A stretch of 64,000 nucleotides of DNA from Ruminiclostridium herbifermentans (GTDB lineage: Bacteria > Bacillota > Clostridia > Acetivibrionales > DSM-1351). Of this stretch, positions 1,032 through 52,496 are shown piece after piece. The stretch is from contig NZ_CP061336.1 of the NCBI RefSeq assembly GCF_005473905.2, positions 682,001 to 746,000 on the forward strand, written 5' to 3'. The translations under genes were made by a program, and so were the position numbers. The notes beneath the pieces are model-generated. The model ran no database searches. It was given only the letters and a program-made list of their open reading frames with translations, and was not told the DNA's origin. Position 1 is the stretch's first letter; each line of letters opens with the position of its first letter.

Positions 1032-1100
1032 AAAGGAGATACCGAGGCTAATCCATTTCCTTAATATTATTTTAGAAATGTTGGCATGGGCATATTTATG
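1032..1100 (+). promoter_or_regulatory. Hairpin-bridged ribosome-binding site of the pentapeptide gene
   Basis: AAAGGAGAT (1032-1040) lies 59 nt before the ATG at 1098, and no Shine-Dalgarno site is closer. Between them CATTTC (1054-1059) pairs with GAAATG (1075-1080). GGCTAA (1046-1051) pairs with TTGGC (1081-1085). CC (1042-1043) can pair with GG (1088-1089). Folding leaves about 11 nt between GGAG and ATG. The 3' side carries GGCATGGGCATA, shared with the sites before 42943 and 52494. Confidence 0.5.
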
Positions 1101-1721
1101 AAATTAGATAGACCTAAAATTAAAGTACTAAAAGAAGCAACTTTTGAAGAATGTGCTTTGACTAATCAATTTACAAATAAAAAGTTTGTTGGAAAACTTG
1201 AAAAGGACATTAAAATTGAGGATGCAGAATTTGAGTGTTGTCACTTTATTGAAATTGACTTCAAGCTAATAAAACCAGAAAAATTGATAATTTGGGATTG
1301 CATTTTTGAGAGATGTGATTTGTCAAACTTTATCTTCAATAAGATATCATTGAAAAGATGCGAATTCATTAATTGCAAATTAATGGGAACTGTTTTTAGT
1401 GAATGTTTTTTGGAAAGTATATTATTTGAAAAGATTAATGGAAGATATATAAATATAAATGGCAGCAAAATTCGCAATATTAAAGTGAAGAATTCTGATT
1501 TTAGTGAGGGTAGATTAATGGAAAATAACACTAAAAATATAGAGGTTGAAGAAGTCAATTTCAATAGTTGCGACTTTATCAAAACGAATCTGAATGATGT
1601 AGACTTTAGTAATTGTAATATAGAAGGTATCAACATAGATTTACAAAGCTTGAAGGGAATGAAGGTAAATAGTTATCAAGCTAGTTGCTTAGCTTCAATT
1701 CTTGGAATTAAAATTGTGTGA
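1098..1721 (+). CDS. Pentapeptide-repeat protein
   Basis: The protein has 207 residues, most of them in imperfect five-residue repeats with the A(D/N)LXX rhythm (for example CIFERCDLSNFIFNK and SDFSEGRLME). Central hydrophobic or aromatic positions recur through residues ~25-180, which predicts a right-handed quadrilateral beta-helix. It is cysteine-rich for a cytoplasmic protein. No signal peptide or membrane segment is seen. Pentapeptide proteins include the DNA-mimicking gyrase protectors (Qnr, MfpA), but many have no known role and nothing here decides the function. An in-frame ATG at 1086 lies in the conserved CATGGG of the upstream hairpin and has no Shine-Dalgarno site. I prefer 1098, placed like the starts at 42943 and 52494. 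The gene is followed after 20 nt by the Fe-S protein gene. Confidence 0.75.
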   Translation: MKLDRPKIKVLKEATFEECALTNQFTNKKFVGKLEKDIKIEDAEFECCHFIEIDFKLIKPEKLIIWDCIFERCDLSNFIFNKISLKRCEFINCKLMGTVFSECFLESILFEKINGRYININGSKIRNIKVKNSDFSEGRLMENNTKNIEVEEVNFNSCDFIKTNLNDVDFSNCNIEGINIDLQSLKGMKVNSYQASCLASILGIKIV

Positions 1722-1741
1722 ACTATAGAAGAGGAGATTTA

Positions 1742-2938
1742 ATGATTAAAATTACAGAAAAACAGAACTGCACTGGCTGTCATGCCTGTTCAAATATCTG
1801 TCCTAAGCAATGCATTATTATGGAGGCTGATAAAGAAGGTTTTTTATATCCTAAAGTAGACTTAGATAGATGTGTTGATTGCGGACTTTGTGAAAAGATA
1901 TGTCCAGTGCTTGCTAATATAAAAGTAGATAATGAACCACGAGCTTATGCCTGTAACAATAAAAATGAACAGATTCGATTAGAGAGCTCATCAGGCGGTA
2001 TATTTACACTGATTACAGAGCAGATAATTAATGATGGCGGTGTTGTGTTTGGCGTTAGCCTAAATAAAGATTTAACTGTACTGCACAGCTATGTGGAAAC
2101 TAAGGAACAACTGAAAGCTTTCCGTGGTTCAAAATATGTTCAGAGTAAGATTGGAGAAACTTATAAAACAGCCGAACATTTTCTTAAGCAGAGCCGAAAG
2201 GTATTATTTTCAGGAACACCTTGCCAGATAGAAGGTTTAAAAGCTTATTTACAGAAGGACTATGACAATTTGTTTTGTATAGATATTATTTGTCACGGAG
2301 TACCATCGCCTAAGGTTTGGGAAAAATACCTTTCATATCAGGAAAAACGCGAAGGTGCTAAGGCAGAGGGAGCAAATTTTAGACACAAAAATAAGGGATG
2401 GAATAAATTCTCTATGGCTTTAGAATTTGACAATGGAAATGAGTATATTCAAACCCTGGATAAGGATTTATATATGAAGGCATTTTTAAAGGATACATGC
2501 CTGCGACCCTCATGCCATAAGTGTAGCTTTAAGACATTGCACAGAAAGAGTGATATCACACTTGCTGATTTTTGGGGTATAAATAAGGTGTTGCCAAAGA
2601 TGGATGATGATAAAGGTACTTCACTTATTCTGATAAATAGCGAAAGAGGAAGAACTATGTTTGACAGCCTTCAAGATAGCATTTTGTTTGAAGAGGTTGA
2701 TTTAAACAAAGCAGTTTCCTATAATCCTGCTGCATTTAGATCTGCTATTTTAAATCCAAACAGAGAAGGTTTTTTCAGAGATTTAGATAACCTTTCCTTT
2801 GACAAATTAGTGGATAAATATTGCTCTGAGAGTATGACTGTGTTAGTTAAAAGGAAAACAAAATCAGTAGTAATTGCAATACTAAAAAAAACGAGATTAC
2901 TAAATTTAGCGAAAAAAGTGCTGAAATGTGTGGATTGA
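1742..2938 (+). CDS. Fe-S / F420H2-dehydrogenase beta-domain protein of polysaccharide loci
   Basis: The protein has 398 residues. The N-terminal ~55 residues are a 2x[4Fe-4S] ferredoxin domain with two CxxCxxCxxxCP motifs (CTGCHACSNICP and CVDCGLCEKICP). Next come the F420 hydrogenase/dehydrogenase beta-subunit N- and C-terminal domains, including SSGGIFTLI, FSGTPCQIEGL, DIICHGVPSP and a CLRPSCHKC cluster. In Clostridia and Bacteroides this family is common in exopolysaccharide loci next to pyruvyl transferases. F420 itself is often absent there, so a redox role on a polysaccharide precursor is inferred. GAGGAG precedes the ATG at 1742 by 8 nt. A longer frame from a GTG at 1718 is not favoured. 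The pyruvyl transferase at 7747-8922 lies in the same region on the other strand. Confidence 0.82.
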   Translation: MIKITEKQNCTGCHACSNICPKQCIIMEADKEGFLYPKVDLDRCVDCGLCEKICPVLANIKVDNEPRAYACNNKNEQIRLESSSGGIFTLITEQIINDGGVVFGVSLNKDLTVLHSYVETKEQLKAFRGSKYVQSKIGETYKTAEHFLKQSRKVLFSGTPCQIEGLKAYLQKDYDNLFCIDIICHGVPSPKVWEKYLSYQEKREGAKAEGANFRHKNKGWNKFSMALEFDNGNEYIQTLDKDLYMKAFLKDTCLRPSCHKCSFKTLHRKSDITLADFWGINKVLPKMDDDKGTSLILINSERGRTMFDSLQDSILFEEVDLNKAVSYNPAAFRSAILNPNREGFFRDLDNLSFDKLVDKYCSESMTVLVKRKTKSVVIAILKKTRLLNLAKKVLKCVD

Positions 2939-3329
2939 TACAGTTGTTATTGTGCTAAGGTAAGATTATACATTGAAGTGATACTAATTAATTATGACTA
3001 ATTAGTGGAGAAAATATCTTTGTTTAGTGCAAGGTGTTTTTATAGCTTAAGTTTGAAGTTCCTCAAAACAGTATTCTTCCAATTTGTCTGAATACAAGAT
3101 GATGTCGTGGAAATTATTACTTTCTATTAAGTTTATGCCCCTAGCTATAGTAGTTTTGATTATAAAACAATTAAAGTTTCAAAAGTCGTATAATTACATT
3201 TTATAACAAAAAAATATTATTTCATGCAGCAAGTAATCTAAATTGACTTTTTATGCTATAATTATAAAGCATGCTTAGCGAAAAATAGTAATGGGTATGT
3301 AAAAAACGACATTTGGAGGAAGCATAAAA
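2939..3329 (+). other. Intergenic region with hairpin and promoter
   Basis: This 391-bp gap has no convincing gene. ACTAATTA (2983-2990) and TAATTAGT (2999-3006) form a perfect 8-bp hairpin without a clear T-run. The only promoter-like element is the extended -10 near 3254-3262. Confidence 0.5.
3254..3262 (+). promoter_or_regulatory. Extended -10 promoter element for the lipoprotein
   Basis: TGCTATAAT is an extended -10 (TGN-TATAAT) 67 nt before the GTG start at 3330. No good -35 is found 17 nt upstream, which is acceptable for extended -10 promoters. Confidence 0.4.
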
Positions 3330-3824
3330 GTGAAAAAAATGAGAAACATTATAGCAATCATTTCAGCACTACTTATTTGTGTAACAGCATTAGTAGGTTG
3401 CGGATCTGATCCAGTGCAAGATGATTTGATTAATTACATTAATAATCAGCTACCAGAAATTGCATCATTGGAAACAAAAGTAACCACCGAGTACGATGCG
3501 ATTAGGTCTGACAGTAATGCAGACGATGCAGCATTTGCAGCTAAATTAAAAGATGTGATAATTCCTGCATCTGCAGAACTGGTTGCAAAAGCAAAAGCAA
3601 CTGTTCCAGCAACAGAAGAAGTGAAAAAAGTACACGATAAATATATTGCTGCAGCGACAGTACAAGGAGAAGCTTTTGACATACTTCTTGATGCAGCTGA
3701 GAAGAGCGACGGAGAGTTAGCTAAAACTGGAACTGATAAGTTAAATGAGGCTGATAAGGTATCAAAAGAGTTTTTAGCAGACTTAGAAACTTTGAAAAAA
3801 GATCATGGGGTAGAAAACAAATAA
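3330..3824 (+). CDS. Small secreted lipoprotein, function unknown
   Basis: The protein has 164 residues. The first ~24 are a lipoprotein signal peptide with basic n-region, hydrophobic core ALLICVTALV and lipobox LVGC; Cys24 would be lipidated. The mature part is polar, alanine- and lysine-rich and predicted largely helical, without cysteines or a domain I recognise. The start is GTG at 3330, preceded by TTGGAGGAAG with ~11 nt spacing; an ATG nine bases later is too far from that site. It is monocistronic, with its own promoter element and a strong terminator immediately after it. It should sit on the outer leaflet of the cell membrane. No function is claimed. Confidence 0.75.
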   Translation: MKKMRNIIAIISALLICVTALVGCGSDPVQDDLINYINNQLPEIASLETKVTTEYDAIRSDSNADDAAFAAKLKDVIIPASAELVAKAKATVPATEEVKKVHDKYIAAATVQGEAFDILLDAAEKSDGELAKTGTDKLNEADKVSKEFLADLETLKKDHGVENK

Positions 3825-3837
3825 CATTGAATTAAAA

Positions 3838-3882
3838 ACTCCTTAGATAGTACTGAGAATGGTATTATCTAAGGAGTTTTTT
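3838..3882 (+). terminator. Rho-independent terminator after the lipoprotein
   Basis: ACTCCTTAGATA (3838-3849) and TATCTAAGGAGT (3866-3877) form a perfect 12-bp stem followed by a run of six Ts. Confidence 0.92.
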
Positions 3883-3940
3883 GTGTACCAATATCACACG
3901 TTCTAAATGTGTTTCTAACAGCTTATATCTGAGTAGAAAA

Positions 3941-4041
3941 TAAAAAGCCTTAATAAAATACCTCAATAAAATACCTCAATAAAAAGCCCAATAAAAAGCC
4001 CTAATAAAAAGCCCTAATAAAAAGCCTCAATAAAAAGCCTC
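3941..4041. repeat. Degenerate tandem repeat of 13-14 bp
   Basis: About seven head-to-tail copies of AATAAAAAGCCCT and variants (AATAAAATACCTC, AATAAAAAGCCTC) lie between two converging transcription units. The unit length wobbles between 12 and 14 bp, so it is not coding. Confidence 0.85.
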
Positions 4042-4094
4042 CTTATTAAATTATTTGCAGGCTTGCTAACTGCAATTAAAATAATAAGAAGGCT
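4031..4094 (-). terminator. Terminator of the polysaccharide operon (minus strand)
   Basis: AGCCTCCTTATT (4036-4047) and AATAAGAAGGCT (4083-4094) pair with one mismatch. Read on the minus strand the stem is followed by TTTTTATTG. It lies ~40 nt after the stop of the O-antigen-ligase gene and overlaps the tandem repeat. Confidence 0.6.
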
Positions 4095-4134
4095 AAAAGC
4101 TTATTTGAGGTTATAAAATTAAATAAGTACTAAA

Positions 4135-5847
4135 TTAAATACTCTCATTTTTAGCAATAATTTTTGTAAGTACATTAGTAGGACCTTTCCTAATAAATCC
4201 TAGATAAACGCAAATTGCTGATATTGTCCAGAAGTATGTGGTTACAGAAGGTGCATCAAAGTTATTAAGTACTATATTAGTAAATAGAATACCTACCATA
4301 GCTCCGAATCCACTTTGAACAATTCCTTTAGAAACATTATCTTCAACTTTTCTAATTGCTCTTAGAGGCCAAACCACCCCATTATATAAAGCTATTAAAA
4401 ATGAAATGAAACCAAATATGCCCATTTCTACAGCTGCCTTAAGATAATAATTATCAACATAGAAGGCGCCTTTAACCTTATTATTTGTTGCTACGGCACC
4501 ACCAAATTTTCCAAAGCCTGTTCCAAATATAGGATTGTTATAGAACATTTCCAAGGCTTTTGGCCATTTTGAGAATCTTCCGCCTCTGAAGCTGCTTGCA
4601 ATATATTCCGGATGTAGCAAGTAACTAATCCTGCTCTGAACTGTTGGAACAAAGCTATAAGCGAGAGCTGCTACAACTACTAACCCAATAATTAACTTGT
4701 ATTTTTTACTTAGAATTGCATAAATAATCAGTGCAAGCCCAAGTGCTATCCAGGAAGAACGTGAACCAGTAAGAATTAAGCAAACTCCCATCAAACCAGT
4801 AGCGAAGGTGTATAAAAGTTTTTTCAAAATATGTTTTTCTGAAAAAACCAGTGATATCGCCAGAGGTATTAGCATAGCTAATAAGCAGCCAAGAACATTT
4901 GGACTTCCTACAATTGAGAAAACTCTAGGGCCAGAAGTAGCCTCCACCTTGTCAGTCCAATATGCAGGAGTCTCAACTTTAGCAATATACTGATATATAC
5001 CAATTACAGACATAAAAATACCTGTAAAAATCATTATCTTTACTAAGTTTTTAGCACCATTTTCACTTCTAAGCAGCTTAACAACAATAAAGAAGAACAT
5101 TAAGTACTCTATATTTGACCTTAATCCATCAAAACCAAGTGAATCAAAGGACGCTACAACAAACAGAACTATTGCCACAAAGAAGAATTGAAATAATGGA
5201 AAATCAACAGGTGACCAATTAAAGGAGAAATCTCTTCTGTCCACTATCCATCTATAAAACCATACTCCGATACAGAAAATAATTAGAAGTTCATCCCAAG
5301 TAGATGCTAGTGAACCTATATTAGTTTCAACAGCTATAAAGTATAATATAGGATATAAACCTACTAGGTAAGCTGCTCTTTCAAAATCACGCAATATAAA
5401 TATTGTGGCTAAAACACCTATAATTCCTACTACAGCAATTTTAGGCAAGAAGCAGCCAGCTAAACAAAGAATAATGGCAATAATAATAAAGAAAGCAACT
5501 CTATACCACTTACCAAAACACTTTTCGCCTAAATTCAATGTGCCTTTAATTAATTTATAAAGAAGGCTATTTTTGTATGCGCGTGAGTATGCAGAATTAA
5601 TATTTTCTGCAATATAATCCAGCTTATTTCCGCAAAACGCCAAGAACCTATATGTTAATGAGTATACATATTTTGGAGTACGTGCAGTGTAATCCTGTAC
5701 AATTTTATAAGTTAGACTGCTTTGGTTCCATTCTGATATTTTTAGCAATATTTTATTTATTAAGCTATTACGAAAAGCATTAGAGAATAACTTATAAATA
5801 TATATCAGAAGGCTATAAAGCAGGCTATTAGATATATATTTCCACAC
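4135..5847 (-). CDS. O-antigen ligase / Wzy-type polymerase family membrane protein
   Basis: The protein has 570 residues. About 115 polar or amphipathic residues are followed by roughly a dozen membrane segments (residues ~118-560). A large extracytoplasmic loop after segment ~9 carries a region reading FRGGRFSKWPKALEMFYNNP and a glycine-rich GTGFGKFGG, typical of the O-antigen ligase/WaaL-Wzy superfamily. A GSRSSW motif lies in the preceding helices. The family joins or polymerises undecaprenol-linked glycans on the outer membrane face. The start is GTG with AGGAGGA 8-10 nt upstream. It is last in a minus-strand operon behind DUF4330 (13-nt gap), GT2 and pyruvyl transferase. The N-terminal stretch has repeated NSLLYSLL/NSLLYKLI-like blocks, which is unusual. 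Ligase versus polymerase cannot be decided. Confidence 0.8.
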   Translation of the reverse strand: MWKYISNSLLYSLLIYIYKLFSNAFRNSLINKILLKISEWNQSSLTYKIVQDYTARTPKYVYSLTYRFLAFCGNKLDYIAENINSAYSRAYKNSLLYKLIKGTLNLGEKCFGKWYRVAFFIIIAIILCLAGCFLPKIAVVGIIGVLATIFILRDFERAAYLVGLYPILYFIAVETNIGSLASTWDELLIIFCIGVWFYRWIVDRRDFSFNWSPVDFPLFQFFFVAIVLFVVASFDSLGFDGLRSNIEYLMFFFIVVKLLRSENGAKNLVKIMIFTGIFMSVIGIYQYIAKVETPAYWTDKVEATSGPRVFSIVGSPNVLGCLLAMLIPLAISLVFSEKHILKKLLYTFATGLMGVCLILTGSRSSWIALGLALIIYAILSKKYKLIIGLVVVAALAYSFVPTVQSRISYLLHPEYIASSFRGGRFSKWPKALEMFYNNPIFGTGFGKFGGAVATNNKVKGAFYVDNYYLKAAVEMGIFGFISFLIALYNGVVWPLRAIRKVEDNVSKGIVQSGFGAMVGILFTNIVLNNFDAPSVTTYFWTISAICVYLGFIRKGPTNVLTKIIAKNESI

Positions 5848-5860
5848 TTAAAGATTCCTC

Positions 5861-6355
5861 CTAATTAAACTCGATGGCTTCTATAGTTCCCTGTGTTTCA
5901 AAGGTACGAGTTTTTAATGTAAATACTTTACCTACTGCAACATCCTGACTATCTAATGTAATTTTTCCGTTACCAGGTTTAGTTTTCATTGTAAATTTAA
6001 CTGTGAGCTCTTTTCTGATTGGGTCAGGAGCATATACTGCTTTTCCATCAGCTGTACTTATTGGTACTTGTAGGTCTGTATAGGATATGGACTTGATATA
6101 TGCGTCTGCAGGATTTAAAAGTGAAATAAGCTGGTCACCCTCTTTTAGAGCTTTTATTTGATCAGTATTTCTTACTGTACATCTATAAGTAACAGTTATA
6201 TTTTGCTGATTTTCTCCAGTTGCAATAGGACTAACGTCTGTACCAATTGTCTTAAAAAAGACTACTACACCAACTAACAATACTAGAACAATAATGCTAA
6301 AATCAATAATATTAATTAATCCAAATAACTTGCCTTTTTCATTTACTATCTTCAT
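5861..6355 (-). CDS. DUF4330 family membrane-anchored protein
   Basis: The protein has 164 residues. The start MKIVNEKGKLFGLINIIDF matches the conserved opening of DUF4330 proteins (EKGKLFGxINIIDxxVI). One transmembrane helix follows (residues ~18-38). The extracytoplasmic remainder is beta-rich, with VTYRCTVRNTDQIKALKEGD and a closing FETQGTIEAIEFN. The family is typical of clostridial polysaccharide clusters and its biochemical function is unknown. GGAGAG precedes the ATG by ~8 nt. The gene is 13 nt upstream of the O-antigen ligase gene, and the two are probably co-translated. A role as partner of the membrane polymerase or ligase is inferred from position only. Confidence 0.78.
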   Translation of the reverse strand: MKIVNEKGKLFGLINIIDFSIIVLVLLVGVVVFFKTIGTDVSPIATGENQQNITVTYRCTVRNTDQIKALKEGDQLISLLNPADAYIKSISYTDLQVPISTADGKAVYAPDPIRKELTVKFTMKTKPGNGKITLDSQDVAVGKVFTLKTRTFETQGTIEAIEFN

Positions 6356-6641
6356 ACTAAAATACTCTCCTCAATCTTTTTTTTAATTCTAAAACTAAAC
6401 GATAAGTAATAAAAACCTCATTAATTCTAGGCTTTTTAATAATTTCCATATATTAATATATGTCTACCATGTCATTATTTCAATGTCTTTTCTTGTCCAA
6501 TTTATAATATGGTCAATTACTGCATTTATAAAACTCTTACTCGCCAGAATAACTATTAAAGAAAAGAATATTTCTCGATATTTCCTGGCTAAATATAACA
6601 AAATATAAATTTTTATTGAATTACACAAAACGTAGTATAAA

Positions 6642-7583: not shown

Positions 7584-7746
7584 TTGACTTCCTCCTATGC
7601 TTAATGTAAATTAAGTTGATTACTTTTAGCTGACATTCCCGTTTTTGGTTTTAAGTTTAACATTGCACTATACTGATGTCAAATTTTCAGAAGAACGTGT
7701 TATGCAATATTAGGCGTAATTATAACAGAAAGATTATAAAATTTAC

Positions 7747-39969: not shown

Positions 39970-40805
39970 CCTCAATATGAATTTTTTGATAAACATGCAA
40001 ACTAGTAGCAGGGTGTTAAAAAATAAGTGCTTGACTAAGTTTATTATGGTTTATAATTGTGATTATGGGATATTTATTAAATAAGAGATTATATAATTAC
40101 TTAAAATATGTTGGTTTGCTGAATAAGAATAATTTGTGATTTTAAGTATAGCGTTATTTCACATATAAATTGGTTAGAAACATACATGAATTAGTTGTTC
40201 AGATGAACAGTTTTTAATCTTTTACAACAGAAAGTATATTTCTCAACCCAAATATAGAACTCTAATGCAAGCAGCAATTGCAATCACAAATTCATCTCAA
40301 ATATTTTAGAAAAATTTGAAAATTCTAAGGTATAATTTTTCATTTTCAGCCGCATAATACCAATAGATGTTATTTTCTCATGGCAGTTAAAAAGTTAATT
40401 ATAATTTCAGCTGAAAAACTGATTTTATAAACAGAACGTTACTTTTATAGTAGGTTTGATAACTCAAACTAATTATATTAAGCGCTTGATAGAATTCAGA
40501 CGTAGTTTCAAAAAATATTATTTTGATTTAAGTGTGTTTGAATGAATAAATTAGGTTTCTTCAGCTTATTGTAATTAACTTAAATTTCCTGCTAAAAGTT
40601 TTAAATGATCAAATTTGTCAAAGGAAAGACGGGTTAAAAGCAATTGATGGGATATGTTATTAATTATGTTGTACAATTATTTTTAAAGTCTTTGATAATT
40701 TGAGCACAAAATTTTATATGAGAAAACCTAAACATTAACTTTTAACTCTCAAAATTACTTAAAAATTTGGATTATGAGGCTATAACTGTGGAAAATTTAA
40801 TTATT
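39970..40805. other. 836-bp gap before the SASP
   Basis: The gap is AT-rich with no frame carrying a Shine-Dalgarno site, no strong hairpin and no riboswitch signature. It should contain the promoter of the spore protein, but I could not place a sigma-G element with confidence. Confidence 0.4.
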
Positions 40806-40872
40806 AAGGAGGTGTCTAGTCTATGTCATTTGGCTTTGTAGTACTTTACAAAATAGGACATAGACAAAAATG
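40806..40872 (+). promoter_or_regulatory. Hairpin-bridged ribosome-binding site of the SASP gene
   Basis: AAGGAGGTG (40806-40814) lies far from the ATG at 40870. GTCTATGTC (40819-40827) and GACATAGAC (40857-40865) pair perfectly over 9 bp. Inner ATT/AAT and TTGTA/TACAA pairs extend the stem. Folding leaves about 10 nt between GGAGG and ATG. Alternative reading: ATG at 40823 opens a 16-codon leader frame (MSFGFVVLYKIGHRQK) whose TGA overlaps the SASP start, allowing translational coupling. Confidence 0.6.
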
Positions 40873-42189: not shown

Positions 42190-42218
42190 TTGACAGTTTG
42201 CAAGATATGTGATAAACT
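42190..42218 (+). promoter_or_regulatory. Sigma-A promoter of cspA
   Basis: TTGACA (42190-42195) and TAAACT (42213-42218) are 17 bp apart. They give a leader of about 65 nt before the start at 42290. Confidence 0.68.
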
Positions 42219-42238
42219 TCTATATGTTGTTAAATGAA

Positions 42239-42253
42239 CGCGATCATATCGCG
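42239..42253 (+). promoter_or_regulatory. Leader hairpin of cspA
   Basis: CGCGAT and ATCGCG flank a 3-nt loop (CAT), a perfect GC-rich dyad in the 5' leader. A role in cold-dependent mRNA structure is inferred from cspA biology. Confidence 0.5.
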
Positions 42254-42289
42254 CAATAAGTTTAGTTATATTTCAGGAGGAATTGATCG

Positions 42290-42490
42290 ATGGAAAAGGG
42301 AAGAGTTAAATGGTTTAATGCTGAAAAAGGCTTTGGATTTATCGAAAGAGATGGCGGAAATGACGTATTTGTACATTTTTCAGCAATCTCAATGGATGGA
42401 TACAAAACACTTGAGGAAGGCTCAGAAGTACTTTTTGAAGTTGTTGAAGGAGCTAAAGGTCCTCAGGCTGCAAACGTTCAGAGAGCATAA
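42290..42490 (+). CDS. cspA: Cold shock protein (CspA/CspB family)
   Basis: The protein has 66 residues, a single cold-shock domain. [20 protein letters not shown] carries RNP1 (KGFGFI) and DVFVHFSAI carries RNP2. [21 protein letters not shown] completes the five-stranded barrel. It binds single-stranded RNA and DNA and acts as an RNA chaperone. CAGGAGGAATTGATCG places a strong Shine-Dalgarno site before the ATG. It has its own promoter, a structured leader and a strong terminator, so it is monocistronic and probably abundant. Confidence 0.96.
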
Positions 42491-42855
42491 TATTTGCTTT
42501 AACTATATACTGAAGTAGCCATTAATACCCCGATATATTATATATATCGGGGTTTTCAATATTTTAGAGAAATACTATAATTAAACTTAAATAAAAGCAT
42601 ATGAAAACGTTTCGTAAATTTTAACTAAATTTGTGTTAGAATAATACTTTCAATGCATTAAAGTTTCATCTATTTGTATGAAGCTTGAATAATATTAAAT
42701 AGTTATTAAGGTCATGTGTGAAGTAAGTTTAAGTGTAGCATTAATAACTATCGATTCTCCGCTGACAGAATATTTATTTTGTGACGAGACAGGCTTTTAG
42801 GTTTAAAGGTTAAAAGATATGTTGAAAGATATGTTGAAAGATATAAAGGAATAGA
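42491..42855. other. Leader region of hslO
   Basis: After the cspA terminator this 365-bp stretch holds 2.5 copies of the direct repeat AGATATGTTGAA (about 42813-42846) just before the distant Shine-Dalgarno site of hslO. No gene is visible. Confidence 0.45.
42525..42555 (+). terminator. Rho-independent terminator after cspA
   Basis: CCCCGATATA (42526-42535) and TATATCGGGG (42541-42550) form a perfect 10-bp stem followed by TTTTC. Confidence 0.9.
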
Positions 42856-42945
42856 AAAGGAGGGACCAAGCCCATATTATTTCTACTCGGGGAATGCATT
42901 TTTCCTCAATTTTTATGATAAATATAGGGCATGGGTATATATATG
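42856..42945 (+). promoter_or_regulatory. Hairpin-bridged ribosome-binding site of hslO
   Basis: AAAGGAGGG (42856-42864) lies 79 nt before the ATG at 42943. GCCCATATT (42870-42878) pairs with AATAT-A-GGGC (42921-42930), nine pairs with one bulge. CCA (42866-42868) pairs with TGG (42932-42934). Folding leaves about 10 nt between GGAGG and ATG. GGCATGGGTATA on the 3' side is shared with the 1098 and 52494 sites. Confidence 0.6.
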
Positions 42946-43827
42946 AATGACTACATTGTAAGAGTGACTGCAGCTGAAGGAACAGTACGTGCTTTTGCTT
43001 CAGTATCGACAGAACTTGTGGAAAAAGCTAGACAAATACACGGACTTTCGCCAATAGCTACATCCGCATTAGGTAGGACGCTTACAGCGGCTGGAATGAT
43101 GTCAAAAATGTTAAAGGGCGATAAAGATAAGCTTACAATTCAAATTAAGGGTGATGGGCCTCTTGGAGGCATTGTGGTTGCATCAGACTCAAAAGCTAAT
43201 GTTAGGGGATATGTTCATAACCCTAGTGTTGATTTGCCATTAACTGAACGTGGTAAATTAGATATAAGAACAGCTGTGGGCTATGGACATATAAATGTTA
43301 TCAAGGATATGGGCTTAAAAGAACCATATGTGGGATTTTCTGATTTGGTTTCTGGTGAAATAGCTGATGATTTAACATACTATTTTGCTACTTCTGAACA
43401 AGTGCCATCAACGGTATCATTAGGAGTATTGGTGGATGCAAGTGGTGTTAAATGTGCAGGTGGCTTTATAATTCAGCTTATGCCAGGAACAGAAGAGGAG
43501 GTAATTGAGAAGCTAGAGGAGAGGTTAATAGGATTTCCTCCTATATCAAAGCTATTGTCAGAGGGAACTACTCCAGAAGAGATTTTAGAGCGTTTACTAG
43601 ATGGAATGGATCCAAAAGTTATTGAAAAAGTACCTTGCAGCTTTACTTGCACCTGTTCAAGAGATAGGATGGAAAGAAATTTGATTAGTATTGGAAAAGA
43701 TGACTTGCTTGAAATACTTGAAGATGGTAAGGGTGCAGAACTTCATTGCCATTTTTGTAATACAAAATATAACTTCACTCACAATGATATAGAAAAGCTA
43801 GTTATGGAGATTCAGAATAAGAAATAA
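42943..43827 (+). CDS. hslO: Redox-regulated chaperone Hsp33
   Basis: The protein has 294 residues. The start MNDYIVRVTAAEGTVRAF matches Hsp33 N-termini (M-x-DY-L/I-V), so ATG 42943 is chosen over the in-frame ATG at 42931, which lies in the conserved CATGGG of the hairpin. The core domain has ATSALGRTLTAAGMM and GGFIIQLMPGTEEEVI. The C-terminal zinc switch has CTC and CHFC (with preceding Cys in VPCSFTCTC), all four zinc cysteines present. Oxidation releases zinc and activates its holdase function. It is a stand-alone gene; translation may depend on the hairpin-bridged site. Confidence 0.95.
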   Translation: MNDYIVRVTAAEGTVRAFASVSTELVEKARQIHGLSPIATSALGRTLTAAGMMSKMLKGDKDKLTIQIKGDGPLGGIVVASDSKANVRGYVHNPSVDLPLTERGKLDIRTAVGYGHINVIKDMGLKEPYVGFSDLVSGEIADDLTYYFATSEQVPSTVSLGVLVDASGVKCAGGFIIQLMPGTEEEVIEKLEERLIGFPPISKLLSEGTTPEEILERLLDGMDPKVIEKVPCSFTCTCSRDRMERNLISIGKDDLLEILEDGKGAELHCHFCNTKYNFTHNDIEKLVMEIQNKK

Positions 43828-43970: not shown

Positions 43971-44046
43971 GGGAGCTTAGCTCAGCTGGGAGAGCATCTG
44001 CCTTACAAGCAGAGGGTCATAGGTTCGAGCCCTATAGTTCCCACCA
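43971..44046 (+). tRNA. tRNA-Val (anticodon TAC)
   Basis: This 76-nt cloverleaf has acceptor GGGAGCT/AGTTCCC, T-arm with GGTTCGAGCCC, and anticodon loop CTTACAA. The CCA end is encoded. It is first of five tRNAs read from the promoter at 43913. Confidence 0.96.
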
Positions 44047-44070
44047 AACTCCGTGAAAGACATACAAATT

Positions 44071-44147
44071 GGCCCGGTAGTTCAGTTGGTTAGAATGCCA
44101 GCCTGTCACGCTGGAGGTCGACGGTTCGAGCCCGTTCCGGGTCGCCA
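44071..44147 (+). tRNA. tRNA-Asp (anticodon GTC)
   Basis: This 77-nt cloverleaf has acceptor GGCCCGG/CCGGGTC, anticodon loop CTGTCAC and T-loop GTTCGAG. The discriminator is G and CCA is encoded. Confidence 0.96.
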
Positions 44148-44151
44148 ATTT

Positions 44152-44227
44152 GCCCAGATAGCTCAGTCGGTAGAGCAGGGGACTGAAAATCCCCGTGTCG
44201 CTGGTTCGATTCCGGCTCTGGGCACCA
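44152..44227 (+). tRNA. tRNA-Phe (anticodon GAA)
   Basis: This 76-nt cloverleaf has acceptor GCCCAGA/TCTGGGC, anticodon loop CTGAAAA, and encoded CCA. It is followed by a 127-nt spacer holding a 24-codon frame of doubtful meaning. Confidence 0.96.
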
Positions 44228-44354
44228 ATACTAAATTGAAAAAACAAGGAATACAATGAAAGCCACTGTTGAGTACTCAGACTTTATATTAACAAATGAA
44301 GAGTACAGAACAGGATACATATCAAAGTAAACCGAAAGTTTTTGCAATTTACAT

Positions 44355-44429
44355 GCGGGTTTAACTCAGTGGTAGAGTGTCACCTTGCCAAGGTGAAAGT
44401 CGAGAGTTCGAATCTCTTAACCCGCTCCA
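44355..44429 (+). tRNA. tRNA-Gly (anticodon GCC)
   Basis: This 75-nt cloverleaf has acceptor GCGGGTT/AACCCGC, anticodon loop TTGCCAA, and encoded CCA. Confidence 0.96.
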
Positions 44430-44471
44430 AACTAAGAGGCAGATTGCAAATGTAGTCTGTCTCAATTTAAC

Positions 44472-44546
44472 GGCGCTATAGCCAAGTGGTAAGGCCAAGG
44501 TCTGCAAAACCTTTATTCCCCGGTTCAAATCCGGGTGGCGCCTCCA
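44472..44546 (+). tRNA. tRNA-Cys (anticodon GCA)
   Basis: This 75-nt cloverleaf has acceptor GGCGCTA/TGGCGCC (one G-U), anticodon loop TCTGCAA, T-arm GGTTCAAATCC, and encoded CCA. Its 3' end (CCGGGTGGCGCCTCCA) is repeated three more times downstream. Confidence 0.96.
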
Positions 44547-44548
44547 TG

Positions 44549-44676: not shown

Positions 44677-44732
44677 ATTCACAAAATGTATTAGGATTTG
44701 AACCTGTTCAATATCCGGGTGGCGCCTCCATG

Positions 44733-44768: not shown

Positions 44769-44828
44769 ATTCACAAAATGTATTAGGATTTGAACCTGTT
44801 CAATATCCGGGTGGCGCCTCCAAAATAA

Positions 44829-44942: not shown

Positions 44943-44970
44943 GGTGCGCCAAACTCCCAATATTCTTAAT

Positions 44971-45630: not shown

Positions 45631-45714
45631 AAATCCTCCATTTTAAAAAGTGATATACTTATAGAGTTATCGTCCGATATCATCAGAAATTTAGGCGATA
45701 ATAAATTGCCTGTA

Positions 45715-46920: not shown

Positions 46921-46995
46921 ATATATTTGTTTTCTCCTATTCTAAATATAAGCTATTTTAAATATAATCTTTAATCCCAAAAGGGCATAAAAATA

Positions 46996-47024
46996 CCGTG
47001 ATACAGTAACCACGGCTCTTTTTT
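46996..47024. terminator. Weak bidirectional terminator-like hairpin
   Basis: CCGTG (46996-47000) pairs with CACGG (47011-47015), followed on the plus strand by CTCTTTTTT and on the minus strand by TATTTTTAT. Confidence 0.45.
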
Positions 47025-47032
47025 ACAACAAT

Positions 47033-47056
47033 AAAAAAACACGATAACCTATCGTG
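47033..47056 (-). terminator. Rho-independent terminator on the minus strand
   Basis: Read on the minus strand, CACGATA, a 3-nt loop and TATCGTG are followed by GTTTTTTT-like sequence (seven Ts). It would end transcripts coming from the GH74 side and isolate rtcB. Confidence 0.85.
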
Positions 47057-47429
47057 AATTCTGTTAATTGAATATTTGTTTTATATCAGGCGAAGGCTAC
47101 ATTAAAATTTGACCTCAAAAAGCATGCTGAAAAAAAGAGACTAGTTTGCCTCCCACGATACTTTTTGGTCCAATATTAAATTATAAATTAAATACCTCAT
47201 AATATATTATTGTTGTCATTTTCAACACTCCTTCCCGTGTAGCTTGGGCGAGCAGATTATGTAAGTCAGCCGCCAGCCACCTAATTGATTAATAAATAAT
47301 CTTACCATTCCATAATATGCCTAGACAAAACCATAAGTCAATATATGTAATTAAATTGAAATATTATTATATCCATAATGTAACAGCCTAAAATATAGGC
47401 CTTTATCATAGGCAAGTGCAATATATCTA

Positions 47430-47558
47430 TTACTGGCTCCTGAAATTGACGCTGAAAAAATTGCGGTGAAGAACAAGCACTTCCGCCGACCTTATAAACA
47501 AGGTATCCTGTATCGGGTCAATATTCACAGCTGCTGACTGCTGCTGTGTCGGCTGCAT
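47430..47558 (-). CDS. Candidate small protein, 42 residues, GC-rich
   Basis: A minus-strand frame starts ATG at 47558 with GAAGGA ~6 nt upstream and reads MQPTQQQSAAVNIDPIQDT, later RSAEVLVLHRNFFS. I recognise no family. Its GC content (about half) stands out from the ~30 percent around it, which is why it was noticed. It lies 163 nt after the GH74 stop and before a minus-strand terminator, so it could be on the GH74 transcript. It could also be a fragment of an imported gene or a structured RNA. No function is claimed. Confidence 0.35.
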   Translation of the reverse strand: MQPTQQQSAAVNIDPIQDTLFIRSAEVLVLHRNFFSVNFRSQ

Positions 47559-47721
47559 TACTTGTCCTTCACCTAATATTTACAATATCAATTTCTACCT
47601 GCACTTTGCAATTAGATAAATATAGCTATTTCGTTTTTTATTGCTATAATAAATAGGTATACATAAAATGTTGTTTTCCAACAAACAGTTTAAAAAGTTA
47701 ATCAAAACAAATGAGATTCAA

Positions 47722-50352
47722 TTAAAATGAAGTAATTATACCTAACAAATAGCTTTTTAGTGCTGCAAAGTCAATAGCATTGACAGAGCCATCTTTATTA
47801 ACATCAGCAAGAACTAATTGCTCTTGAGTGAGAGTAGTTGAACCTAGAAGATACATTTTTAATGCAGCAAAATCGACAGAATCAATATTGCCGTCTTTGT
47901 TAATGTCTCCTAAAGAGAAAGTTGGTATTTGAGGCTCAGCGCCTGAAGGTTCACCATATACAATACCTCTTCCGTTGGTTGCAACAAAGACACGTCCATA
48001 AACTCTTAAATCTCCAGTAATAGAATAATTTATCGAGCCATACTGGTGCTGGTCATCATTTACTCTTACCCAGCTTTTAGCCATATCATCTGAGCGGTAA
48101 ACTGCATATAGACCGTCTGTTTCACCGCACATATATATTGCAAGATAATTTCCTCCATCTTTAGCCTTTCCGAAGCCAATAACATCACATCTGGTAGGAC
48201 CATTAACTTTATTTATTGTTTTTCCGCCGTCAGTGGTATAGGAAAGACCAGTTGTTGGACCAGGAATCCAAACATGACCTTCTTTACCTGGAACGGCTTT
48301 AATCTTAGCAGTAGGGGACTCAAGACCTGTTTGTACTGCAGTAAATGTAAGTCCTCCATCATTACTTACATAGAAAGTGCTGTCTGCATATGCATAGAAT
48401 ACTTTTGGATTAACTCTATCTGAGCAAACATCTGCACCTGCAGGCAGAGTACTAACAGCTTTCCAGCCACCGTTTACATAGCATATAACTCCCTGGCTTG
48501 TACTAGGTGACCAAACAAAGGTAGAACCGTCAGCAGACATTGCAACAGTACCACCCTGCACTATATCGTCTGGATTTGTAGCAGGGAAAGTATAGCTTAC
48601 ATTTGGATGTGCTTCAGTCCATGTCTTTCCGCCATCTTTTGATATAGCAACACTCTTTTTAATCATCTCATATTGCTCTTTATCAATATTACCTACTCTT
48701 ACCATCATATTTGGATTAAGTTCTGCATAATCCATACCAGTAGTACTTGTAAATGTAGGGTTTGTCATCATGCAGTCAGGTCCTTTTTGAAGGTCTTCAT
48801 GAACAAAACCGCATATATCACCAACACCGCTTATTAATTCTACACCGTCAATAGGTGGGCACATAAGGCTTAAAACTGCTGTCTGCTCTATTCCAATTCC
48901 CATAACTTCAATATTTACATATTTACCTTTATCCCAGTCAGTTAAGTTCTTTGTACCGTAGACGGTAGCACCTGTACCGTACATCATTTCATCTGAGTCA
49001 AAAGGATTAATTTCTATATCGCCAATCATCCAACCCAGCTTTGGTGTAGGGCTGTCTACTATTTCATTACCAGATACTAGACCTCCTGATGCAGCGTTTA
49101 CTTTTTTACCCCAGGAGAGCCAAGGTGCTTTCGAAATATCCATTGTATATTTTAGATTTCTTGAAGGCCATGAATCACCAAACTCCCATATAGCATCCCA
49201 AGTAGCTCCAGCATCAGTAGAACGGTAAATGTTATCATCAGGCCACCATGACTCTAATGTTGTTACAATTAGTGTGTCTGGATTTTGTGCGTCAACGCTT
49301 AAACCAGCAAATCCATAGTAATTTTCGTATTTAGGAGAACCGTCCCAGTTTTTCCCTGAAGGAGGTGTTATATCTGTCCAAACACCTGTATTTGTATCAT
49401 ATTTGTAAACTGCACCATCTTGACACTGATATGGTCCGCCTCTATCACCATATGTTACATATAAAATTCCGTTACCGCTGATAACTCCATGGTATGGAAT
49501 TCCTATTGTCAAAGCATCTTGGTTATGTCGCGTAAATGTAGCTTCTGTAGGCTGACCTTCAACAGGACTCCATGTTTTTCCGGCATCATGACTTACATAA
49601 AGTGGATTCTTTTTATCAGCAACTCCTACATAAATATCCTGTGTAGGTGTGCCTTTAGTTCCTTTGGCAGAATCAAAGGTTACAAAACACAGACCTAAAT
49701 TATCAGATGTATATTCAAAATTTGGGTCTTCAACATAGTTTCCTACGTTTGTAAAGCTAGTTACTTTTGCCCATGTTTTACCGTAGTCTGTACTTTTCCA
49801 TAATCCATTTCCACTTCTTGCAGCAAAATATAGTATGTTATTGCTGTTAGGATCTATCATTAAGCGCTCACCAACTGAACGCCCAGGCATATTTCCGCCA
49901 AATTTGAAAGGTAGTTCAGTTCTTTCCCATGTTTTGCCGTAGTCATCAGAACGTAAGATATATCCGTTCATTGAAGTCCAGCTATTTGTATATGTACCAG
50001 CCGCAATGTAAACTCTGTTTGTTTCAACAGGATCTGTAGCTATACTTTCACATCCAAGTAAATTCCATTCATCAGGTGAAACCCAATCAGTAATAGGCTC
50101 CCACTCTAATGTCTGCTTATTTCTAATATATGCTCCTCCCATATCAGTTCTAGCATAAACAAGACCTTCTTCACTTGGATTATAGATAATTCCGCAGACA
50201 AATCCTCCTCCACCTTCGATTGTTACATTATCCCATTTGTATGGAACACTTGTTGCTCCATTTGCGCATAAATTTGGTGTTATTATGGATGTACACGTAA
50301 AAATAATAACTAAAGATAGAATTATTATTTTTCTGATATTTCTAATCTTCAT
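47722..50352 (-). CDS. xgh74A: GH74 xyloglucanase with type I dockerin (cellulosomal)
   Basis: The protein has 876 residues. Signal peptide ~1-33 is followed by a GH74 catalytic module of two seven-bladed beta-propellers (~38-770) with BNR-type blades ([24 protein letters not shown]). The N-terminal catalytic Asp is expected in [11 protein letters not shown], as in known GH74 enzymes; the second lies in the C-terminal propeller near [21 protein letters not shown] dockerin (~808-870) has two calcium loops [20 protein letters not shown] and [20 protein letters not shown]. It cleaves the beta-1,4-glucan backbone of xyloglucan and docks on a cohesin scaffold. AGGAGG precedes the ATG. It is the only polysaccharidase in the window, far from any visible cellulosome cluster. 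Confidence 0.95.
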
Positions 50353-51119
50353 ATGATTAACCTCCTACATTTCTACTTAATTCATCACTTATATTTGAGT
50401 GATAGTATTAATATAGCTATAATGCTCATTAAACGCTGTTAATAAGTCAAATTTTCTGTATTTTTAGTTTAATTAATACTATTCACATAAACTAAGTGAA
50501 AACTGTTAAAAATTCACAGTAGATATTTTTATAAAATTAGACCTTTTATGACTTGAAATATAAAGCTATTGGTAAAGCTAGTCCCCCCCTTCAATCAATT
50601 TTGAATTTTTAGCTAGTGGAAATTATACTGATATTCCTCCTTTCATTTTGAAGATGTTTATATACTTTAAGTGTATTACTTAAACAGTAAACAAGGTACT
50701 GCAATAATTACATAGTATTTACTGTAATAATTGCATAGTAATTACTGTAAAATTACATAGTGACAAAATTTCCTTTCAAAGATGCAGAACCATTAAGGTG
50801 CAAAGATATTTTCTATAGCTGATAAAAAAATATAAGATAAAACAATCTGTCCTTAAAATCGACTTTAATATAGATATAGCAACAATAAGCTTCTTATAAG
50901 TAATATTATACAATTTTTTGCTAAATTCGGCATGAAAAAAATGTAGAAAAGCAAAGAGAATGTTGGAGGAGTTTATTTGAAATGCTAATGTACGATATAT
51001 TCTAAATTTAGCTGATATTAATTTACTTTGTTAATGATTATTTCAAAAACCAATAATTAAATATATAATAGATAATATATTACGAGATTAAGGCAGAATC
51101 AATTAATAGGAGTAAGCAA
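50353..51119. other. Divergent 767-bp gap (GH74 / cobT)
   Basis: It contains an inverted repeat GTGATAGTATTAA (50399-50411) / TTAATACTATTCAC (50473-50486) in front of GH74 and the iteron-like repeats at 50696-50764. No cobalamin riboswitch (B12 box) is found upstream of cobT. Confidence 0.5.
50696..50764. repeat. Three iteron-like direct repeats of ~22 bp
   Basis: Units GTACTGCAATAATTACATAG, TTACTGTAATAATTGCATAG and TTACTGTAAAATTACATAG lie head to tail between GH74 and cobT. They look like repeated operator sites. Confidence 0.7.
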
Positions 51120-52178
51120 ATGATATTAAATGAATTACTGAATAAAATAGTACCTTTAGATACAGAATCAATGAGAAATGCTCAAATTAGGTTAGATAGT
51201 CTTACAAAACCACTTGGAAGTCTAGGTAAGCTTGAAGATATTGTAGTAAAGCTGTCAGGTATAAATTGTTCTTCTGCTCCAAAGGTTGATAATAAAGCAA
51301 TTGTTGTGATGTGTGCTGATAATGGTGTTGTTGAGGAAGGTGTCAGTTCGTGCCCTAAAAGTGTTACCGCATCTGTTACTTGTAATTTTACTAGGGGTAT
51401 AACTGCGTTAAATGTATTTTCGAGACTCACACAGTCAAAGGTGGTAGTTGTAGATATTGGGGTTGATGCTGATATTCAAAATGATGCAATTGTAAGCAGG
51501 AAAATCCGAAAAGGTACTTGGAATATGGTAAAGGGTGCTGCTATGACGGAAGAGGAAGCAATTAAAGGGATTATGACTGGAATTGAGATTGTAAAGGATT
51601 TAAAAGAGGAAGGAGTAAATCTTTTAGGCACTGGTGAAATGGGTATCGGTAACACATCAACAAGTAGTGCAATCACAGCCGTTTTTACTGGTGAACCAGT
51701 TGAAAGGTTGGTTGGAGTTGGATCTGGACTTTCAAAAGCAGCTTACATAAATAAAATAGAGGTAATCAAAAGGGCAATTGAAATAAATAAGCCCGATGCT
51801 AATAATCCAATAGATGTGCTTGCAAAGGTTGGAGGATTTGATATTGCAGGACTTACAGGTTGCTTTTTAGGGGCTGCAATATACAGAATACCAATTGTAA
51901 TTGATGGCTTTATATCAGCTGCTGCGGCATTAACTGCAATTCGTATAAATCCAAAAGCAAGAGAGTATATGTTTACATCCCATGGTTCTGCAGAACCAGG
52001 AGCTGAAATTGTTATGAAAGCCATCAATATGGAACCAATGCTGAATCTGAATATGAGAGTAGGAGAAGGAACAGGAGCTGCTTTAGGTTTTCAAATTATT
52101 GACGCGGCTATGGCAGCATATACTCAGATGGGAACTTTTGCTGATGCTCAAATTGAGCAGTATGTGCCTCAAGAGTAG
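51120..52178 (+). CDS. cobT: Nicotinate-nucleotide-dimethylbenzimidazole phosphoribosyltransferase
   Basis: The protein has 352 residues, standard length. Motifs are RLDSLTKPLGSLGKLED, MCADNGVVEEGVSSCPKSVT, LLGTGEMGIGNTSTSSAI, VGGFDIAGLTGCFLGAA, SHGSAEPGAE and the catalytic Glu in RVGEGTGAALGFQIIDA. It makes alpha-ribazole phosphate from dimethylbenzimidazole or a related base and nicotinate mononucleotide for the lower ligand of cobamides. TAGGAGTAAG precedes the ATG. No other cobalamin gene is adjacent, so it is an isolated copy in this window. Confidence 0.96.
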   Translation: MILNELLNKIVPLDTESMRNAQIRLDSLTKPLGSLGKLEDIVVKLSGINCSSAPKVDNKAIVVMCADNGVVEEGVSSCPKSVTASVTCNFTRGITALNVFSRLTQSKVVVVDIGVDADIQNDAIVSRKIRKGTWNMVKGAAMTEEEAIKGIMTGIEIVKDLKEEGVNLLGTGEMGIGNTSTSSAITAVFTGEPVERLVGVGSGLSKAAYINKIEVIKRAIEINKPDANNPIDVLAKVGGFDIAGLTGCFLGAAIYRIPIVIDGFISAAAALTAIRINPKAREYMFTSHGSAEPGAEIVMKAINMEPMLNLNMRVGEGTGAALGFQIIDAAMAAYTQMGTFADAQIEQYVPQE

Positions 52179-52222
52179 TTTTAATTATTAATGGAATTAT
52201 GATTTTGATAAAACACTTACAT

Positions 52223-52251
52223 TTGACAAGGCGTTAGTTAAGTAGTATTCT
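52223..52251 (+). promoter_or_regulatory. Sigma-A promoter of the 52494-54033 pair
   Basis: TTGACA (52223-52228) and TATTCT (52246-52251) are separated by 17 bp, about 240 nt upstream of the start at 52494. Confidence 0.6.
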
Positions 52252-52430
52252 GTTTATACTAATTAGCATTAAAAATGGGGTATCACTTATTGTAGTGTGC
52301 CACTTCTCAATTGATATAAAAATTCCTCTATTTTATATACGAAATAGTATTATATTGGCATTATCTAGTGGCCTAGTTTTATAAAGAGAGAGCAAAAGAT
52401 GAATTTGATATTAAATTATATTATTTATAA

Positions 52431-52496
52431 GGGAGGTACTGTTCCGTGTCATTCCATTGATAAGCTCTCAAAGTGTAATGGCATGGGTATAATATG
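52431..52496 (+). promoter_or_regulatory. Hairpin-bridged ribosome-binding site of the membrane-protein gene
   Basis: GGGAGGT (52431-52437) lies 57 nt before the ATG at 52494. CCATT (52454-52458) pairs with AATGG (52477-52481), and CCGTG (52444-52448) with CATGG (52482-52486, one G-U). Folding leaves 12-14 nt. GGCATGGGTATA is shared with the sites before 1098 and 42943. Here the decoy ATG in CATGGG is out of frame and stops at a TGA overlapping the true start. Confidence 0.6.

Follow-up and report, generated by a model that had tools for sequence, protein, structure and literature searches.

A dispersed hairpin unit between Shine-Dalgarno sequence and start codon in Ruminiclostridium herbifermentans and its relatives: a probable mobile element with a proposed bridged ribosome-binding site

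The 64,000-nucleotide stretch of Ruminiclostridium herbifermentans analysed here (contig NZ_CP061336.1, positions 682,001 to 746,000; hereafter the window) holds four genes, for a pentapeptide-repeat protein, a SASP-like protein, Hsp33 and a protein without a Pfam match, whose ribosome-binding sites (RBS) share an unusual arrangement. The original prediction, made from the sequence of the window, was that no strong Shine-Dalgarno (SD) sequence lies close to these starts, the strong one standing 57-79 nt upstream and an inverted repeat occupying the interval, and we found this to be as described at all four. The SD core lies 58, 57, 79 and 57 nt from the ATG at starts 1098, 40870, 42943 and 52494, respectively, and in the last 20 nt 5' of the four ATGs the cores GGAG, GAGG, GGGG and AAGG are all absent, the sole nearer core being a weak AGGA at 40870 that falls within the 3' stem arm. 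The genes are also as unrelated as had been claimed, the pentapeptide and Hsp33 families being recognised by Pfam and the 183-residue product of the last gene, hydrophobic by eye, belonging to no Pfam family. We find that each is preceded by a copy of one dispersed element (Table 1), which we consider likely to be a mobile 'initiation-bypass' element, inserted in the SD-start spacer and carrying a bridged RBS like that of phage T4 gene 25.

Three of the four sites share the motif GGCATGGGYATA, which the prediction had singled out. It is exact at 1083, 42928 and 52480, with no other exact occurrence in the window, and turns out to be the 3' stem arm of one sub-family, the common form of the stem being GTCCATG...CATGGAC. 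By itself the motif is not significant in the window (11 matches with up to two mismatches against a shuffle mean of 6.4, at least 11 being reached in 8 of 100 shuffles), and the significance of these sites rests on the whole element, not on the motif alone. In the 4.82-Mb genome GGCATGGGYATA occurs seven times, and four of these are elements before an open reading frame (ORF), namely the three window sites and locus L023; the other three (L004, L006 and L007) have no model match at the motif. L004 carries a separate element away from its motif. A covariance model, R1, was built from 13 congeneric elements (alignment A3) that include three of the four window sites, site 40870 being outside the training set. 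Run over the window with filters off, R1 recovers all four (Table 1), the next best match scoring 14.3 bits. Site 40870, which has no GGCATGGGYATA motif, is a genuine member, since it reaches E = 6e-5 outside the training set and its G009 orthologue (L130) carries the element too.

Table 1. Element copies, the genes behind them and neighbouring features, in positions of the window (R1 scores with filters off)
Feature	Position	Strand	SD	Stem arms	R1 score	Remark
Element copy 1	1028..1100	+	core 1035-1038	1046-1054 / 1083-1091 (model arms, degenerate)	66.7 bits, E=3.3e-13	before pentapeptide-repeat gene, start 1098
Pentapeptide repeat protein gene	1098..1721	+				behind copy 1; Pfam pentapeptide
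Element copy 2	40801..40872	+	40808-40812	GTCTATGTC 40819-40827 / GACATAGAC 40857-40865	31.2 bits, E=6e-5	before SASP-like gene, start 40870
Alpha/beta-type SASP-like gene, 56 aa	40870..41040	+				behind copy 2; Pfam SASP
Element copy 3	42852..42945	+	42859-42863	42870-42878 / 42928-42936	60.7 bits, E=8.5e-12	before hsp33, start 42943; long-loop form
Hsp33 gene	42943..43827	+				behind copy 3; Pfam HSP33
Element copy 4	52425..52496	+	52432-52436	UUCCGUGUC 52442-52450 / GGCAUGGGU 52480-52488	52.8 bits, E=5.7e-10	before 183-aa gene, start 52494
Gene for 183-aa protein	52494..53045	+				behind copy 4; no Pfam match
cspA thermoregulator RNA family, sub-threshold match	~42194-42556 (L016 767-1129)					39.6 bits (gathering 78); upstream of hsp33 element
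Five-tRNA-gene cluster	43971-44543					downstream of hsp33

A search of relatives with a covariance model, the check that had been proposed, found the element in other congeners, at gene starts and with covarying stem pairs. Here G000 denotes the genome of the window, other G-numbers denote other genomes and L-numbers denote fetched loci. In G000, R1 finds at least 57 copies at E<=1 (150 of 4035 candidates scored) and R2, a covariance model from 82 copies, at least 62 at E<=1e-3 (150 of 5705 candidates scored). Among the candidates scored, eight of the 11 genomes of the genus, which is also the entire family in our genome set, carry the element, with 62 copies in G000 and 18, 18, 12, 6, 4, 3 and 1 in seven of the 10 congeners, and three (G002, G005 and G007) show none. 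We found none in the 47 genomes of the order outside the genus (8/58 positive overall; E<=1e-4, 83 candidates scored per genome, stricter filters). In the class 10 of 391 genomes are positive with 12 candidates scored per genome, five belonging to this genus and five to two other families: f37, where G249, G354 and G337 have 10, 12 and 12 matches, and f23, where G155 and G318 have 2 and 1. The presence of the element is therefore patchy, in one genus and then in two distant families of the class, and dense in one of these. Our table of 136 copies is made up of G000 (60), G003 (18), G354 (13), G337 (12), G008 (11), G249 (10), G009 (6), G001 (2), G155 (2), G318 (1) and G006 (1); a further 25 complete fetched copies (including L014, L017 and G354/G337 copies) lie outside it and were added for the ORF and orthologue counts only, bringing these to 161. 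Model matches never fetched comprise 10 of the 18 of G009, two of the six of G001 and several of G000, and the motif matches L011, L021 and L022, judged chance by eye, were excluded from alignments.

Phages and plasmids gave no match to one G008 unit, and four exact patterns gave a single match in viral_contigs (L317), within a coding sequence and taken as chance; with no phage, plasmid or viral-contig match beyond it, we rejected a phage or plasmid carrier. A match in Alteromonas (L193) has no element context around it. Rfam gave no match to the element, either at the gathering threshold over the window or at E up to 5 over nine loci, and on this ground a known RNA family, group I and II introns included, was likewise rejected, the below-threshold cspA match of L016 (Table 1) lying upstream of the element.

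A clean unit reads AAGG[T/C]TGAAAG...[G/A]CAT and measures 94 nt in the best-defined case, being longer where the loop holds an inner hairpin (AAGGAAATGCATATTTCCTT), as it sometimes does. From 5' to 3' it consists of a linker (AAGGYTGAAAGAAAT...), an SD (AAAGGAGGTRCC), the stem GYCCATGYC / GRCATGGRC around a loop, and then CAT; read by eye, without statistics, the loop often forms a second helix CATTTC/GAAATG, with TATTTC/GAAATA and CGTTTC/GAAACG also occurring. At three of the window sites CATGG had been predicted to pair with a CC-led segment and to hide a decoy ATG. The family consensus has an AUG in both stem arms; in the window a 5'-arm AUG is present at 40870 only, and the main stem of the first site is weak. 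This 5'-arm AUG would also allow a leader peptide, started 10 nt past the internal SD, whose translation would unfold the stem, with the gene then reached by coupling. The AUG is well spaced from the SD for such a role and its frame is uniform in young sub-families (9/9 in one frame in G249); however, the 35 G000 copies with such an AUG show no preference for any frame with respect to the start (14/7/14), and the upstream ORFs, judged by eye, have no common end point, making a leader peptide very unlikely in our view. Two further candidates were rejected: a promoter in the 5' linker, where TTGAAA/TATAAT-like words (by eye) are wrongly spaced and not common to clades, and a pseudoknot of the loop CTTTC with the linker GAAAG, which by eye could form in some G003 copies but is broken in others (L106, L117b).

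We found that the stem is conserved as a structure. In 82 aligned copies 93.5% of the stem cells are paired against 86.9% after shuffling (0/500 shuffles reach this), and doubly changed cells number 64 against 21.8 expected (0/500 shuffles), figures biased towards the structure, since the copies were found with it, were fitted to it and are related. Pairing falls to 23-42% when the stem partners are slid. A cleaner check is the comparison of site 40870 with its G009 orthologue L130, where by eye three double changes keep the stem (GTCTATGTC/GACATAGAC against TTCATGCC/GGCATGAA). Moreover, folding of the G000 copies gives a mean z of -2.69, with 41/60 below -2. The geometry is nearly constant as well. 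The SD lies 41-114 nt from the ATG (109 copies), yet it stands 5-6 nt from the stem in 78/99 copies where both could be found, the 3' stem ends exactly 6 nt from the ATG in 106 of the 136 copies, and once the stem is removed 78 of the 99 measurable copies have an unpaired SD-ATG distance of 11-12 nt, in keeping with the 10-14 nt originally predicted; since the search model scores SD, stem and ATG, it favours SD retention, pairing and the stem-ATG distance in all of these counts.

This spacing matches the 11 nt of T4 gene 25. In T4 genes 25 and 38 RNA structure between SD and AUG cuts the effective spacing from 27 to 11 and from 22 to 5 nt, and destabilising the structure lowers initiation in gene 25 (PMC3014915). 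The likeness is that folded RNA shortens the SD-AUG spacing, here from about 60 to 11-12 nt. The T4 cases, however, are single phage genes, with the gene 25 arrangement limited to close T-even phages, whereas the present family is dispersed and recently mobile, is equipped with an SD of its own and stands at well over 100 chromosomal genes. At the window sites and in G000 a distant strong SD stands without a nearer strong one, and the conserved structure gives a workable spacing, as expected of a bridged RBS.

The element sits at gene starts and in the sense orientation. An ORF of at least 40 aa opens within -3 to +7 nt of the modelled ATG in 129 of the 136 copies, a count favoured by the inclusion of the ATG in the covariance model, and directly at a further 23 of the 25 added copies (152/161 in total); an ORF of at least 100 aa follows 118/136. 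As background, 21% of all 2200 window ATGs open an ORF of at least 40 aa and 14.5% one of at least 100 aa. DNA-similarity searches with units of 101-102 nt agree, with 12/13 copies before an ATG in G003 and 9/10 at an ORF of at least 40 aa in G249. The downstream genes are mostly unrelated to each other, and families confirmed by hidden Markov model (HMM) include GatB, RbfA, MiaA, PrmA, RNase III, HisH, PyrB and ThiM, as well as a response regulator and a NiFe hydrogenase; a GatA fragment falls under the full-length HMM cut-off, and hisF, tex, azlD, MMPL and other names were assigned by eye. The element precedes a gene read by eye as a large serine recombinase in two congeners (L012/L017 in G006 and G004), a possible vehicle of transfer.

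Evidence for insertion comes from near-identical copies and from empty sites. In G003, 13 copies match the query at 91-98% identity over 97 nt or more of its 102, and G249 has 10 at 96-100% over 94 nt or more of 101; both sets are recent bursts with uniform ends, and the tandems L057 and L283, joined at CATA/AGG, are consistent with the same unit ends. In the young clades the 15 nt directly 5' of the unit boundary hold an SD core (GGAG/GAGG) in 44/61 copies, against 2, 4, 4, 3 and 3 of 61 in five adjacent control windows of equal size, a count that omits 5/66 young-clade copies without a recognisable 5' boundary and in which at least two boundaries (L205, L217) were placed too far 5', working against the result. 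This SD is the gene's original one. In hisF of G003 the unit follows GGAGTA where G000 and G009 read GGAGTAAAAAAATG, and at both hisF and tex (by eye) only G003 of the 11 genomes has a unit. Two young G001 copies have empty orthologues in G010, with 93 and 95% identity over the joined flanks. At the first, GAGGAGCTGG directly followed by AAATATG in the empty site corresponds to GAGGAGCTGG-unit-AAATATG in the filled one, an exact insertion; at the second the empty site reads TTAGGAGATAGGATTATATG and the filled one TTAGGAGCTCA-unit-TTATATG, with an exact right flank. In both the unit lies within the SD-start spacer and ends 4 nt before the ATG, and of the two sites one shows no target-site duplication, the other nothing beyond a 2-nt AA that is ambiguous.

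The left flank of the unit varies in base and in distance from the SD, while the right flank is mainly N4-ATG. The base at -1 is T in 47/61 young-clade copies against 8/18 ordinary SD-led window genes, a possible target preference, though in G249 the T is perhaps part of the unit: right flanks there (L216-L225) read AAAT before the ATG in 8/10 copies, which may mean that the unit includes these bases or that the preference is strong. Specificity for start codons could come from the choice of an enzyme or from selection, and that neutral insertions elsewhere should survive argues for targeting. Searches with the G003 and G249 units showed no copy with an ORF in its loop, and long copies of that kind were rejected, the partial matches that were read being contig ends, diverged copies or a hairpin-less copy. 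The latter, L294 (G354 C88, minus strand, about 850-1090), has linker and internal SD after an intact original SD and lacks the hairpin, leaving GGAGGCAGTTATG; it is a hairpin-loss derivative or a solo 5' module.

A recurrent element before so many genes might instead be a translational regulon, that is, a conserved cis-element bound by a protein or small RNA or responding to temperature, with copies recruited by selection. The original prediction had suggested an undescribed translation-control motif, perhaps temperature- or protein-responsive. The conservation of stem and CATG core in sequence besides pairing and the AUGs in both arms of the consensus would suit a regulon, as would the downstream genes held in common: BLAST at 1e-5 among the 152 downstream proteins gives nine orthologous sets that bear the element in at least two species (MMPL, SASP-like, L079/L190, rbfA, L004/L187/L107, L008/L014, L012/L017, L049/L051 and L046/L112), the remaining links being a transketolase-like pair in G000 and broad superfamilies, and 4/8 fetched G009 copies have a counterpart in G000. 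These shared sets fit old insertions inherited from a common ancestor, but they fit a regulon as well. One gene has the element in G000 (L004), G009 (L187) and G003 (L107), where the copy belongs to the young G003 sub-family, so that L107 is an independent second insertion or a replacement. The rbfA gene carries it in two distant families of the class (L078 in G000, L238 in G155, L239 in G318), by ancient insertion or by independent insertions. A mobile element rather than a regulon is indicated because copy number runs from 62 to 0 within one genus (among candidates scored), young copies are near-identical, clean recent insertions adjoin an intact original SD, and empty sites exist; most targets, moreover, are unrelated and not shared between species. 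What stands of that prediction is a hairpin-bridged RBS that recurs over genes and species without an Rfam match, and its regulatory sense we consider decidedly unlikely; we see no sign of a response to temperature or to a protein.

The two SDs found at young copies have different fates. G000, in which the copies are old, has an internal SD in 59/60 copies and an external one in 2/60 (controls 0-5), and the young clades still have an external SD in 39/65 (controls 4-7), with an internal one in 40/65. Mean anti-SD duplex energy in G000 is -13.1 at the internal site and -4.8 near the start. Old copies have replaced the SD of the gene, the loss of the external SD being free of search bias and the presence of the internal one subject to it. 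Because G000 keeps the internal and loses the external SD while the young clades still hold the latter, use of the internal SD is supported, and translation apparently moves to internal SD and stem after insertion while the host RBS decays. An RNA-level intron, spliced or otherwise processed from the mRNA so that the original SD rejoins the ATG, would explain insertion between SD and start as well as the G003 units without a good internal SD; against it, splicing would depend on the external SD, which is gone from old copies, and Rfam gave no intron match. About 94 nt is too small for any known self-splicing intron, and we find this explanation scarcely credible.

A more ordinary account is a non-autonomous DNA repeat, similar to miniature inverted-repeat transposable elements (MITEs) or REP sequences, whose hairpin serves transposition as folded DNA, translation starting from another site and the position before the ATG reflecting the target preference of an enzyme. 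The uniform unit ends, the recent bursts and the T at -1 would all be expected, and the young G003 unit has spread while lacking a good internal SD, which means that mobility does not need the SD. The element is indeed short, multi-copy, without a transposase of its own and given to recent bursts, as are MITEs, BOX, RUP, ERIC and REP sequences, but it differs in being confined to the SD-start spacer in sense and in showing no clear target duplication at two sites. Terminal inverted repeats were also lacking in one unit, its 5' end matching the reverse complement of its 3' end at 3/14 positions, the inverted repeat being internal. REP/RAYT and IS200/IS605-derived palindromes have a fixed short target or tetranucleotide beside the element end, and no fixed target is seen here. 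Further against such a repeat, the internal SD is kept in G000 while the external is at background (with the search bias noted), and the compensatory changes at the orthologous old site suggest stem selection long after insertion. We regard this account as unlikely, if by no means negligible.

Taken together our comparisons favour a mobile element with a bridged RBS, for which we propose the following course. The unit would insert in sense orientation between SD and start codon, in most cases with 4 nt left before the ATG, and the gene would then have two SDs, the old one about 100 nt and that of the element about 60 nt upstream. With the stem folded, about 12 nt of unpaired RNA would separate the element's SD from the ATG, and an initiating ribosome bound at the internal SD could get to the AUG by crossing the stem at its base, the arrangement of T4 genes 25 and 38. 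Such bridging, which the stem probably provides in vivo, would make insertion nearly neutral; the external SD, now useless, would decay, and internal SD and stem would be kept, until old copies come to resemble regulatory hairpins. Spread is presumably selfish, and mobilisation probably depends on an enzyme acting in trans.

Several observations weigh against this reading, beginning with the biases towards structure and geometry noted above for the alignment and the search model and with the nine orthologous sets. No ORF of 40 aa or more begins at nine of the 161 copies (L057b and L283, which are upstream tandem members, L058, L102, L113, L127, L207, L223 and L287). Although 7/9 stem pairs show change on both sides, 21/500 shuffles equal this; the CATG core of the stem is more conserved than bridging requires; and the main stem of copy 1 is weak, with 3/9 model pairs non-standard and an alternative second stem CCATTTC/GAAATG available. 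The hisF and tex comparisons are between diverged species, and the two genomes disagree in four to six bases of the left flank at the second G001/G010 site. No mobilising enzyme was found, no systematic search having been made. An exception is G003, where the internal SD of the 13 young copies is damaged, mostly to TGTGG; the mean duplex over all 18 G003 copies is -5.7 kcal/mol against -13.1 in G000. In many G003 units the 3' arm holds a GGGAGG (mean -8.2) at 13 nt from the ATG. The strong distant SD of a bridged RBS is lacking in this genome (-5.7 at the internal site against -8.2 nearer the start), although hisH, hisF and tex sit behind such damaged-SD copies, and bridging from the internal SD does not suffice as an explanation there. 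Either the 3'-arm site is used, or weak initiation is tolerated, or something else is at work.

Other inserts have been tolerated in or near genes by different means. Rickettsia palindromic elements (RPE) are small repeats of about 150 bp that invade unrelated genes and are tolerated (PMC10969869). The likeness lies in this tolerated entry into unrelated genes; units here, however, are found ahead of the start codon rather than in the ORF and bring along an SD. RPE, for their part, insert within ORFs and encode a peptide. In Magnusiomyces mitochondrial genes and T4 gene 60 inserts are harmless because ribosomes skip them (PMC5009743). The likeness is an insertion made harmless by ribosome skipping, but there elongating ribosomes hop within ORFs, whereas here an initiating ribosome would bridge a folded insert. 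The text of the 2024 MITE review (PMC10969869) does not contain 'Shine-Dalgarno', 'ribosome' or 'start codon', and we found no description of the element in the open PMC literature, a body that does not extend to subscription journals and preprints. What we consider new is that niche, target and a bridged RBS supplied by the element itself come together, and this would be less so if a known transposase family moves the unit.

Two side observations concern other repeats near RBSs. A second dispersed repeat (GYGGC..GYGGCTYAAAGCCATnnnATGGCTnAGGAGG) in G001, G010 and G008 (e.g. L308, L307, L311 and L173), with about 45 matches among candidates scored, has its hairpin directly upstream of an SD and ends in the SD, with an ATG shortly after, and is possibly another RBS-associated mobile repeat. 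L275, the G249 orthologue of the G354 gene at L274 (NuoE-like by eye), lacks the unit and has a different stretch of about 100 nt with inverted repeats between SD and ATG, perhaps another bridging insert.

Going beyond the mobile bridged RBS, we tentatively suggest, as a version on which we would not yet bet, a new class of element for initiation sites, whose target would be the start codon and SD themselves, with the right junction at -4 and the left one wherever the SD ends, and which would supply SD and bridging hairpin and replace the host RBS, so that dozens of housekeeping genes would start through a captured selfish element; the integrating machinery might then possibly act on mRNA or DNA engaged in translation initiation. 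Should a machine be found that places DNA at a constant four bases ahead of start codons, it would attract wide interest. Selfish DNA in bacteria is commonly seen as persisting because it stays out of genes, is spliced or is read in frame. The family described here occupies the most translation-critical nucleotides and seems harmless through ribosome geometry. Natural tests of folded SD-start separation have, to our knowledge, come mainly from two T4 genes, and the family offers many more of how far a folded insert can part SD from start codon. In these genomes the prediction of start sites and RBSs, and the discovery of 'regulatory hairpins', can be misled by it. If true, the proposed mechanism would place the element beside introns, inteins and the bypassed inserts of mitochondria, as their counterpart in initiation.

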